From contig NZ_FRBS01000003.1 of the NCBI RefSeq assembly GCF_900142675.1, positions 124,001 to 188,000 of the forward strand: 64,000 nt of DNA, given 5' to 3'. The notes beneath the pieces are model-generated. The model saw only the letters and a program-made list of their open reading frames with translations, ran no database searches and had not been told where the DNA came from. The position numbers and the translations under genes are program-made. Below, piece by piece: positions 23,648-62,832 of this stretch. Position 1 is the stretch's first letter, and each line of letters starts with the position of its first letter. The stretch comes from Shouchella rhizosphaerae (GTDB lineage Bacteria; Bacillota; Bacilli; Bacillales; Bacillaceae_D).

Positions 23648-23922
23648 ACAAAAAAGACTTTCTGCGCGCCCATGCTGGGATCCAGCAAGGGGCGAGAAAG
23701 TCTTCACGCGGTACCACCCTTTTTCGCTAACAATGGTTAGCCTCTAGCAAGCCGAAATCCGGCTTGCAGTTTTTATAACGAATGCGTTCACAGCATCCGG
23801 CGCTCTTACTACAATGTTCAGAGACGCACTCAGAGGTGAGTTTCATTTAAGCTTTAACACCGTTTTCCAGCAACCAACGGCTCTCTGTAGATAAAGCAAA
23901 AATTACTTTCCTCTTCATTGTG
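23648..23922 (-). promoter_or_regulatory. Leucine-responsive T-box leader of ilvBHC-leuABCD
   Basis: On the minus strand the T-box core AGGGTGGTACCGCG lies at 23707-23720. It is followed by a GC-rich terminator hairpin (GACTTTCTCGCCCC ... GGGCGCGCAGAAAGTC, then TTTTTTG; about 23651-23700). Stem I shows AGAGAGCCGTTGGTTGCTGG and the specifier loop GAAACTCACCTCTGAG. The codon in the specifier position is CTC (Leu), followed by the usual A. Known T-boxes read uncharged tRNA, so uncharged tRNA-Leu should promote antitermination. This fits a leu operon. Confidence 0.93.
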
Positions 23923-23931
23923 TTATCGTTA

Positions 23932-28207: not shown

Positions 28208-29737
28208 ATGGAATTAGAAAAATTTGTCGACCCTATGCCTATTATGAAAACAGCAATCCCTAAAAAAACAAGCAAGGATGGAGACTATTACGAAATTGAG
28301 ATGAAGGAGTTTTCACAAAAACTGCATCGGGATTTAAACCCGACTCGCTTATGGGGGTATGATGGCCAATTCCCTGGCCCCACGATTGAAGTGATGCGGG
28401 GAAAACCAGCTCGGATCAAATGGATGAACAACCTCCCTGATACCCACTTCCTTCCGATTGACCGATCGATACACCACGTTGCCCATGAACCAGAAGTCCG
28501 CACCGTCGTCCATTTGCATGGGAGCGAAACGACACCAGCAAGCGATGGCTACCCTGAAGCTTGGTTTACAAAGGATTTTGCAGAAGTGGGATCTTTTTTT
28601 GAACAAGAAACTTATGAGTACCCAAACGACCAAAGGGCTGCCACCCTCTGGTACCATGACCATGCGATGGGAATTACACGCCTTAATGTATATGCAGGGT
28701 TGAGTGGTCTATACATTATTCGTGACCCACGAGAAGAACAGTTAAACTTGCCAAAGGGAGAATTTGACATTCCATTGCTGATTCAAGACCGGTCTTTTAA
28801 CGACGACGGCTCTCTCTTCTACCCAGCCCAGCCAGCCAATCCCGCGCCAAACTTGCCGAATCCGTCGGTCTTGCCGTTTTTTGTCGGCGATACGATTTTA
28901 GTAAACGGAAAAGTTTGGCCTTACTTGCAAGTTGAACCACGGAAGTACCGACTTCGCATTTTAAATGGATCCAATTCACGTTCCTACCAGCTAGCCCTTG
29001 ATTCAGAAGCACCCTTTTATCAAATCGCTTCAGACGGCGGTTTGTTAAGAAGGACTGTTTCTTTGCAGGCATTCGATATCCGTCCAGCCGAACGGATTGA
29101 AGTCATCATTGATTTCAGTAAATTCGAAGGCCAAACGATCACACTGAAAAACAATGCAAGCACTGACGCCACAGCGGATGTGATGCAGTTTCAGGTCGTT
29201 CTTCCCTTATCCGGAGAAGACACAAGCATCATTCCTCAAAACCTATCTTATATCCCGTCGCTTCAGCAAAACGACGTCAAACGGATACGAAACTTAAAAA
29301 TTTCTGGGACGACGGACGAGTACGGCAGGCCTCTCCTTTTGCTCAATAACAAACTGTGGAGTGACCCTGTTGAGGAAAAACCGTGTTTAGGAACGACGGA
29401 AATATGGTCATTCGTCAATGTCACCAACGTCCCCCATCCCATGCATATCCACCTAGTCCAATTTCAACTCTTGGACCACCGGGCGTTTAACGTTGAGCTG
29501 TACAATGAAAATGGCCAAATCGAATTAGTGGGGCCGACTATTCCGCCTAAAATCAATGAGCGAGGCTGGAAAGACACAATCACTGCCCCTGCAGGGCAAA
29601 TCACTCGCGTCATTGCCCGATTTGCGCCGTTTTCCGGGTACTATGTATGGCACTGCCACATTCTCGAGCATGAAGACTATGATATGATGCGTCCTTTCGT
29701 TGTTATTGATCCGAAAACAGAGAAGGAAAGGCGATGA
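28208..29737 (+). CDS. cotA: CotA-type multicopper oxidase (spore-coat laccase)
   Basis: Three-cupredoxin laccase of 509 residues that oxidises phenolic substrates and reduces oxygen to water. In B. subtilis CotA is an outer spore-coat enzyme making brown pigment. All four copper motifs are intact: HLHG (102-105), WYHDH (148-152), HPMHIH (410-415) and HCHILEHEDYDMM (482-494), including the T1 Cys and axial Met. There is no signal peptide, as expected for a coat protein assembled in the mother cell. CAGGAGCGG precedes the ATG. It follows the glycosyltransferase after a terminator-like hairpin, so it probably has its own promoter. Confidence 0.95.
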   Translation: MELEKFVDPMPIMKTAIPKKTSKDGDYYEIEMKEFSQKLHRDLNPTRLWGYDGQFPGPTIEVMRGKPARIKWMNNLPDTHFLPIDRSIHHVAHEPEVRTVVHLHGSETTPASDGYPEAWFTKDFAEVGSFFEQETYEYPNDQRAATLWYHDHAMGITRLNVYAGLSGLYIIRDPREEQLNLPKGEFDIPLLIQDRSFNDDGSLFYPAQPANPAPNLPNPSVLPFFVGDTILVNGKVWPYLQVEPRKYRLRILNGSNSRSYQLALDSEAPFYQIASDGGLLRRTVSLQAFDIRPAERIEVIIDFSKFEGQTITLKNNASTDATADVMQFQVVLPLSGEDTSIIPQNLSYIPSLQQNDVKRIRNLKISGTTDEYGRPLLLLNNKLWSDPVEEKPCLGTTEIWSFVNVTNVPHPMHIHLVQFQLLDHRAFNVELYNENGQIELVGPTIPPKINERGWKDTITAPAGQITRVIARFAPFSGYYVWHCHILEHEDYDMMRPFVVIDPKTEKERR

Positions 29738-29976: not shown

Positions 29977-30053
<77 letters not shown>

Positions 30054-30058
30054 ATGAT

Positions 30059-30132
30059 TGGAGCGGGTGAAGGGAATCGAACCCTCATCATCAGCTTGGA
30101 AGGCTGAGGTTTTACCACTAAACTACACCCGC
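30059..30132 (-). tRNA. tRNA-Gly (anticodon TCC)
   Basis: A 74-nt cloverleaf on the minus strand. The acceptor stem is GCGGGTG/CACCCGC with discriminator T and encoded CCA. The anticodon arm is CAGC-CTTCCAA-GCTG, and the T-loop GTTCGATTC. Its 5' half (30102-30132) is the part duplicated at 30257 and 30411. Confidence 0.96.
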
Positions 30133-30256
30133 ATATTAAATTAAGCTATTTTCTTTATTTCGAGCACCGTACTTTATGCCTCTTCCTCTGCTGGCTTAAT
30201 CGACGAAGCCAATGCGTCGAGGCAACTCGGGGCTTTTTCATGGATGTGTTGCTCGT

Positions 30257-30287
30257 GGCTGAGGTTTTACCACTAAACTACACCCGC
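30257..30287 (-). pseudogene. tRNA-Gly 5' half, copy 2
   Basis: These 31 nt are identical to positions 1-31 of the tRNA-Gly gene: acceptor 5' strand, D arm and first anticodon-stem strand. The sequence then changes to ACGAGC instead of the anticodon loop. It cannot form a tRNA alone. Confidence 0.9.
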
Positions 30288-30410
30288 ATTTTTATTAAGC
30301 TATTTTCTTTATTTCGAGCACCGTATATCATGCCTCTTCCTCTGCTCGCTTATTCAGCGATGTTCATGCGTCGAGGCAACTCGGGGATTATTCATGGATG
30401 TGTCGCTCGT

Positions 30411-30441
30411 GGCTGAGGTTTTACCACTAAACTACACCCGC
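30411..30441 (-). pseudogene. tRNA-Gly 5' half, copy 3
   Basis: A second 31-nt perfect copy of the tRNA-Gly 5' half, with the same breakpoint as copy 2. It is the first met by RNA polymerase coming from the promoter at 30588. Confidence 0.9.
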
Positions 30442-30561
30442 ATTTTCATTAAGCTATTTTCTCTATTTCGAGCACCCTATACCATGCCTCTTCCTCTGCT
30501 CGCTTATTCGATGAGGCAACTCGATGCCTATTGTCGGTGACCTTATTATGTAGATGCAAAG

Positions 30562-30616
30562 CGCCGCTTACAGCAGCGACGCTTATAACTATACAGGACA
30601 TTGAAAAGATTGTCAA
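30562..30616 (-). promoter_or_regulatory. Strong sigma-A promoter of the tRNA operon with initial hairpin
   Basis: Minus strand: TTGACA (30611-30616), exact 17-nt spacer, TATAGT (30588-30593). The first transcribed bases can form AAGCGTCGCT/AGCGGCGCTT. The predicted leader is about 450 nt before mature tRNA-Gly. Confidence 0.85.
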
Positions 30617-62574: not shown

Positions 62575-62832
62575 AATAAAAAAAGCCTTCTACTCCCTAA
62601 AAAGGGACGAAAGCTCCGTGGTACCACCCTTCGTTTGCACTTGCTAAAAAAGTGCAACTTCATTGTCCATAACGGCTCTAAACCGGGAACATCTTTTAGA
62701 GATGCCAGCTCAAGAGTGAATTCGGCCCATCCTACCATAGAAACGCTTCCAGTCTTTGGCATTCCCTCCCTGAAAGGCGGTTTTAAGCTTACTACTCTCT
62801 ATCAACGCTTTTTATCCTATACAATTACGATT
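62575..62832 (-). promoter_or_regulatory. Phenylalanine-responsive T-box leader of pheST
   Basis: Minus strand T-box AAGGGTGGTACCACGG (62613-62628) is followed by the terminator stem AGCTTTCGTCCC-TTTTTAGGGAGTAGAAGGCT type hairpin and TTTTTTT (about 62579-62612). Upstream, stem I shows AGAGAGTAGTAAGCTT. The specifier loop GAATTCACTCTTGAG has TTC (Phe) followed by A. Known T-boxes of this layout let uncharged tRNA-Phe prevent termination. Confidence 0.93.

Follow-up and report, generated by a model that had tools for sequence, protein, structure and literature searches.

In Escherichia coli, the tyrT repeats (rtT RNA) are tandem units located next to tRNA-Tyr, each of which contains the 3' end of the tRNA. 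Insertion sequences of the IS200/IS605 group and their small derivatives insert 3' of a short target, do not duplicate that target, and form structures as single strands. According to the respective publications, genomic islands integrate in tRNA genes via tyrosine integrases (Islander, PMC4383910), group I introns occur in bacterial tRNA genes (PMC3984707), bcr1 is specific to the B. cereus group (title cited in PMC2267715), and a survey from 2008 contains a Bhal-1 family, otherwise undescribed, of 74 nt with 36 copies in B. halodurans (PMC2267715). That survey filtered out tRNA sequences and dropped tRNA-related clusters (PMC2267715).

The repeated tRNA halves at a tRNA-Gly locus of Shouchella rhizosphaerae are the left flank of a small structured DNA/RNA element of about 80 bases. 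As in the tyrT repeats, tandem repeats lie by a tRNA and each includes a copy of part of it; whereas the tyrT units carry the 3' end of tRNA-Tyr, downstream of the gene and at one locus, the units described here carry 5' pieces of many tRNAs, lie upstream and share an element, and Rfam scans of the window give no match to rtT. Genomic islands resemble the present case in that they insert in a tRNA gene, leave a displaced tRNA fragment and regenerate an intact tRNA (as outlined in PMC4383910); here as well, the junction is inside the tRNA gene and an intact tRNA stands beside the displaced fragment. In contrast to islands, which bear genes, the unit is an element of only about 80 nt that contains no integrase gene, it is the 5' piece that is displaced, and the junction differs with the tRNA type. 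Precise insertion in tRNA genes is shared with group I introns (as outlined in PMC3984707), but the expressed tRNA is uninterrupted here, an extra 5' part standing ahead of it, and no group I intron is matched in the Rfam scans of the window. Like the element, bcr1 and Bhal-1 are short, intergenic, structured and repeated, and Bhal-1 (PMC2267715) might be related to it.

Our literature searches, in one of which unrelated papers took up most of the ranking, listed nothing that describes the element. About one in two genomes sampled from a well-studied bacterial order carries the element in its tRNA operons, and the element has no convincing match in Rfam. If mobile, it would be very small for a mobile element and would raise the question of how insertion in a tRNA gene brings about a duplicated 5' part; if functional, it would be an overlooked component of tRNA operon leaders.

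The array upstream of tRNA-Gly

Within the window, i.e., the whole stretch of 64,000 nt that was analysed, a direct-repeat search finds three 36-nt copies of the 5' part of tRNA-Gly(UCC), located at 30102, 30257, and 30411, with copy-to-copy spacings of 155 and 154 nt; two of the three are 97% identical to the reference, the single mismatch being a leader position. Tandem Repeats Finder describes the array by a period of 154, 2.6 copies and 91% matches, and ARAGORN calls one tRNA-Gly and one tRNA-Arg at the locus, both on the minus strand, and no tRNA at the extra tRNA-Gly copies. These three programs bear out the preliminary description, in which the 5' part of tRNA-Gly was seen in three tandem copies with only one running into a tRNA, and both extra halves do end after nt 31 of the tRNA as stated there. 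When the first 18 nt of tRNA-Gly were searched in the window with up to three mismatches allowed, three sites were obtained, all of them exact, whereas 0.03 sites are expected by chance and three were reached in none of 100 shuffles; the repeat is not due to chance. On the minus strand, the order is promoter candidate, degraded element, piece, element, piece, element, tRNA-Gly, tRNA-Arg, with the following features:

29977-30053, minus strand: tRNA-Arg (UCU), the next tRNA downstream (ARAGORN)
30059-30132, minus strand: intact tRNA-Gly (UCC), its first 31 nt being 30102-30132 (ARAGORN; Rfam RF00005, 74.6 bits)
30133-30176, minus strand: tail of 44 nt from the gene-proximal element to tRNA-Gly (sequence; comparison of tails)
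30177-30256, minus strand: gene-nearest element copy, 80 nt (cmsearch with model R1, 87.9 bits; copy also in the training set of the model)
30257-30287, minus strand: nt 1-31 of tRNA-Gly as a 5' piece joined to the element (repeat and 18-nt searches)
30288-30330, minus strand: tail of the second unit, 43 nt (sequence, direct repeat)
30331-30410, minus strand: second element copy, 80 nt (cmsearch with model R1, 89.5 bits; copy also in the training set of the model)
30411-30441, minus strand: second tRNA-Gly 5' piece, nt 1-31 (repeat and 18-nt searches)
30442-30484, minus strand: tail of the degraded third unit (direct repeat D2)
30485-30546, minus strand: degraded third element without tRNA piece (cmsearch with model R1, 31.5 bits, E 1.7e-6)
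30588-30616, minus strand: promoter candidate TTGACA-17-TATAGT (motif search; similar sequence by eye in the loci of 18 relatives)

The spacers between the halves thus contain a conserved element (30177-30256 and 30331-30410), which had gone unnoticed in the preliminary description, as had the third, degraded copy without a half at 30485-30546. Of the contrast drawn there, between halves that are kept and spacers that drift, the second part is wrong, since the spacer contains a widely conserved structured element. A promoter upstream of the array had been proposed as well, and a candidate is present at 30616-30588; two such sites occur in the stretch as compared with 3.1 expected from shuffles, and a promoter-like TTGAC...TAT...GTC precedes the tRNA, as judged by eye, in 18 sister loci without extra pieces.

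Distribution, junctions and structure of the element

Every half adjoins an element of about 80 nt, ACGAGC...CGAGUUGYCUCGACGCA...AGAGGAAGAGRCA, the ends of which are sharp (ACGAGC...GAGRCA). In the S. rhizosphaerae genome, the spacer is found at further tRNA-Gly loci and, in addition, following nt 1-14 of tRNA-Met, where the units stand singly, in pairs or in threes. With a covariance model built from 113 diverse copies (an alignment that leaves out a short tRNA-Met form and near-duplicates), 11 matches are obtained in this genome, at tRNA-Gly and tRNA-Met loci. Ten of them could be placed, four at tRNA-Gly pieces and six behind tRNA-Met pieces, each with the piece of its own tRNA, and the eleventh is presumably the degraded copy at 30485-30546. 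The exact core pattern occurs in 13 of 40 genomes, that of S. rhizosphaerae included, and gives no match when read backwards; it is found in at least 115 stretches of named records, and Geobacillus, Anoxybacillus, Parageobacillus, Cytobacillus, Halalkalibacter, Evansella, Shouchella, Anaerobacillus, and Neobacillus are represented among the matches listed. Of 150 genomes from the order, 75 contain a model match under strict filters, and in a class-wide sample seven of 250 genomes were matched, all of them from the same order.

Several observations were made in the course of these searches. At tRNA-Met units of Shouchella (L006, L008, L013, L017), the element has a shortened form, ACGARCGAARYGAG..., in which some 17 nt are missing from the first half and which stands in two to four tandem units. 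A stretch of Anoxybacillus voinovskiensis (L112, 1-4916) contains eight pattern matches ahead of several different tRNAs. Two further records matched by the core pattern (L109 and L127) bear the titles of a Bacteroidia MAG and of an isolate of Pseudomonas; their contigs are possibly mislabelled or contaminated. Phages or plasmids were considered as carriers and were not retained: in searches of more distant sequences most of the matches listed are short and resemble tRNAs themselves, and although four stretches of viral contigs carry the pattern, the three distinct units analysed there precede tRNAs. Two plasmid matches remain, both from Anoxybacillus amylolyticus, in which NZ_CP015440.1 (H1) covers 95% of the repeat region and NZ_CP015439.1 (H2) 79%, with 77% identity, and therefore the element may travel on plasmids.

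Among 183 distinct units, which were collected by the exact core pattern so that the conservation of their core is partly ascertained, 170 have a tRNA downstream on the same strand within 700 nt and 13 do not. At least ten tRNA types are preceded by the element, and a duplicated 5' part of the tRNA in question accompanies it. Even for model matches that seemed dispersed, a tRNA lies just downstream in 19 of 20 hand-chosen regions, which adds Val and further Ala and Arg cases; in the regions measured, the element shares the orientation of the tRNA, which follows at a distance of 33-65 nt. The junction is found after nt 31 in Gly, 14 in Met, 24 or 25 in Thr, and 17 in Asn, after nt 17, 24 or 26 in Lys, and after nt 17 or 27/28 in Arg. 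What these positions share is that they lie 3' of AGNN, AG being present at -4 and -3 in 157 of 160 units, as counted over those of the 183 units whose ACGARC start can be read, which leaves out 23.

In most units, the bases after the element continue the tRNA for one to eight positions, in most Gly units for a single one. Position +1 matches in 53 of 53 Gly units and in 95% of 20 Met units, +1 and +2 in 13 of 13 Thr(24) units, +1 to +3 in 75% of eight Asn units, and six bases in all four Lys(17) units, whereas non-cognate tRNAs match in 2-31% at +1, although at Met +2 this control already reaches 51%. At one locus (L051), two whole elements, three tRNA bases apart, stand behind a single tRNA-Arg piece. 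Since the tRNA continues directly after the element, the arrangement looks like an insertion without target duplication. The tails, however, contain no recognisable decayed tRNA 3' half beyond 8 nt (the own tRNA was above the mean of the others in 47 of 107), and so they do not account for the duplication at tRNAs.

Dozens of copies lie away from tRNAs in Evansella vedderi and likewise in G049, a genome for which the model gives 57 matches, and those that were read sit in a palindromic intergenic repeat; none of 30 G049 loci examined has a tRNA within 1.5 kb. The repeat of Evansella is found both without the element, as CCAGCG directly followed by GGAAAAGC, and with it, as CCAGCG, element, GG, and in one further Evansella copy the element occupies another place of the same repeat. 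Flanks in G049 indicate three insertion places within the repeat, one of which breaks the AGNN rule, with AACA or AATA as flanks in eight of 20 tabulated cases. Unlike at tRNA sites, no duplication accompanies the element in the intergenic repeats. A second, shorter motif around CGAGTAATCGCAG recurs in and near the palindromic repeats of E. vedderi (L185, L188, and L191) and is perhaps another module.

The only stem with covariation support is at the 3' end of the element, and other conserved letters lie outside it. Among 79 matches, the terminal stem is UGCUUC/GAAGCA in 31, UGUCUC/GAGACA in 18, UGCCUC/GAGGCA in 11, UGUCCC/GGGACA in eight, and UGUUCC/GGAACA in three, the other eight rows being single types. 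Stem cells are paired in 99.4% as compared with 90.7% in shuffles, and 81 cells show double changes as compared with 28 (none of 500 shuffles was as high in either case), in an alignment that was fitted to the structure and some rows of which also built the model. The covariation score exceeds all 500 shuffles, and three of the seven stem pairs change on both sides in a compensatory manner; two of the five measures are not above shuffles (double-change pairs, 3 versus 2.6; further pair types, 9 versus 9.0), and the 31 of 79 rows that share one type are typical of the single genome G049. In the first alignment (n = 113), pair 38-83 is C-G in 81 rows and U-A in 32, with no mixed case. These patterns support a terminal stem that would form in a single strand, either RNA or ssDNA.

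Rfam gives no gathering-level match on the element in the window; at E up to 5 there are two chance-level overlaps, one of 14.0 bits on the opposite strand (gathering 50) and one of 11.5 bits (gathering 48). At ten further loci, none of the 150 matches listed of 185 covers the element, and Bacillaceae-1 RNA, which had been suspected from loop motifs, is absent from the Rfam matches listed. We found no convincing match that would assign the element to a known Rfam RNA family.

Turnover of units and conservation of the tRNA halves

Behind the YsnB-like gene, 18 of 27 orthologous loci have no extra piece and nine have one or two, the 27 being those with a tRNA-Gly (three of 30 had none). Comparison of Alkalihalophilus pseudofirmus OF4 (L321) with L270 provides one tRNA site with and without the unit: 89 nt upstream are identical, and the difference consists of element, tail and a second copy of tRNA nt 1-31, placed between nt 31 and 32 of the tRNA, which could reflect a loss instead of a gain. 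Another locus, L269, shows an apparent deletion scar.

Elements at different tRNAs of one strain have a mean distance of 0.215 (89 pairs), those at the same tRNA in different genera one of 0.254 (1365 pairs), with strain labels assigned by hand; such closeness within strains is as expected if elements spread within genomes. Across genera, units of the same tRNA nevertheless resemble each other somewhat more than expected by chance (8 of 300 shuffles of the labels were as low), so the tRNA type carries some signal and part of the pattern is therefore inheritance.

Of 70 Gly units, 52 have a piece that equals its own tRNA at all 31 positions and 62 one that does so at 29 positions or more, as against 55% agreement over 20 nt of leader. 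Eight units fall below 27 of 31, five of which have an unreadable element start and hence an uncertain register (the piece of L105 reads intact), and clearly decayed halves with 21-23 of 31 stand beside well-kept elements at L060, L065, and L068. The comparison among relatives by which the preliminary description was open to refutation is divided in its outcome, copy number being erratic, yet the halves far better kept than the leaders. Where tRNA-Gly departs from the common sequence, the half agrees with it at 20 of the 21 places, which represent three positions in 11 loci; this is concerted evolution with the intact gene, for which unequal exchange between direct repeats would account, as it would for the varying number of units. 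Selection on the pieces may also contribute, above all for those of tRNA-Met, which are just 14 nt, short for homologous exchange, and yet intact in most of the units listed. Predicted pairing between element and half shows a mean cognate gain of -0.51 kcal/mol over six tRNA types (row and column means removed), with about zero for Arg and Lys.

Mobile element or leader RNA

We infer that the spacer is probably a small non-autonomous mobile element, or a mobile structured RNA module, of the Bacillaceae. Its insertion sites, 3' of AGNN, would lie in tRNA genes, which it would enter in their own sense, and in palindromic repeats as well; the order seen at tRNAs is leader, tRNA from nt 1 to the junction, element, a few continuation bases, tail, and complete tRNA. 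As a complete tRNA follows the tail, the tRNA would stay whole and the 5' piece would be left upstream. Piece and gene would then act as direct repeats, between which unequal exchange may add or remove units and keep the pieces identical to the gene. With IS200/IS605 elements it would share insertion 3' of a short target and a structure formed as single strand, but it has no transposase, its only covarying stem is at the 3' end, where hairpins near both ends would be expected, part of the tRNA and the leader are duplicated at tRNA sites, and G049 provides exceptions to AGNN. The Y1 transposase family PF01797 co-occurs with the element (71 of 125 versus 4 of 25 genomes, Fisher p 0.0003, in a table that compares two genome lists and in which genome G155 was placed because it is not listed). 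We take this as no more than a lead, because the genome of S. rhizosphaerae has one broken match and genome G034, with 17 element copies, has none, and the co-occurrence may only mark repeat-rich genomes. A more specific scheme, in which an 80-nt RNA mobile element without a protein of its own is transcribed in tRNA precursors and copies itself into hairpin loops 3' of AGNN, in tRNA genes and palindromic repeats, with the duplicated 5' part sparing the host tRNA, seems unlikely to us as it stands.

The main rival reading is that of a cis-acting RNA with a function in the leaders of tRNA operons, engaged in processing, antitermination or regulation and spread by recombination, with the tRNA piece as part of it or travelling along. 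We consider this doubtful, although such an RNA would fit the tRNA sense and the fairly constant distance of the element in the regions measured, its strong conservation with unpaired motifs and a covarying stem, its location ahead of ten or more tRNA types, and Gly pieces that agree with their tRNA at no fewer than 29 of 31 positions in 62 of 70 units, as against 55% for 20 nt of leader. It is harder to reconcile with the half of the 150 genomes that have no match under strict filters, with the absence of the extra piece from 18 of 27 sister loci, with the dozens of copies far from tRNAs (no tRNA at any of the 30 G049 loci), with clearly decayed pieces beside well-kept elements, and with a mean cognate pairing gain of just -0.5 kcal/mol.

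Two further explanations concern the tRNA halves. That the halves themselves are selected, as decoys, as stable 5' tRNA halves or as alternative partners of the 3' half, is in our opinion very unlikely: the agreement of pieces with their tRNA at 20 of the 21 places that vary, and short tRNA-Met pieces that are mostly intact, would be in line with it, but the length of a piece is set solely by the junction position in each tRNA and three Gly pieces at 21-23 of 31 stand beside well-kept elements. The preliminary description had offered selection for alternative pairing or decoys as one of three options, and it is not borne out here, as piece length varies with tRNA type from 14 to 31 nt, some Gly halves are decayed, and cognate pairing barely beats non-cognate. 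Both other options fit, namely gene conversion, given that the half carries the same change as tRNA-Gly at 20 of the 21 departures, and the footprint of a tRNA-targeting element with its crossover in the anticodon arm, given the junctions and the sites with and without the unit; as a whole, that earlier reading is partly supported. Plain tandem duplication of the leader and the tRNA 5' half without any element could explain array units that are 90% identical and unit numbers that differ between close relatives, and yet it is scarcely credible, being contradicted by the recurrence of the same element in many genera, where it stands within intergenic repeats or follows pieces of other tRNAs.

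Other features were met during the analysis. In the window, Rfam matches two T-box leaders on the minus strand, at 23685-23927 (125.3 bits) and 62600-62814 (98.7 bits), and the ORF at 28208-29737 on the plus strand encodes a protein of 509 aa whose sequence resembles a CotA-type multicopper oxidase. A match to the sRNA BsrG (53.9 bits, gathering 55) lies at L009, 1415-1669 on the minus strand, near a 5S/tRNA cluster.
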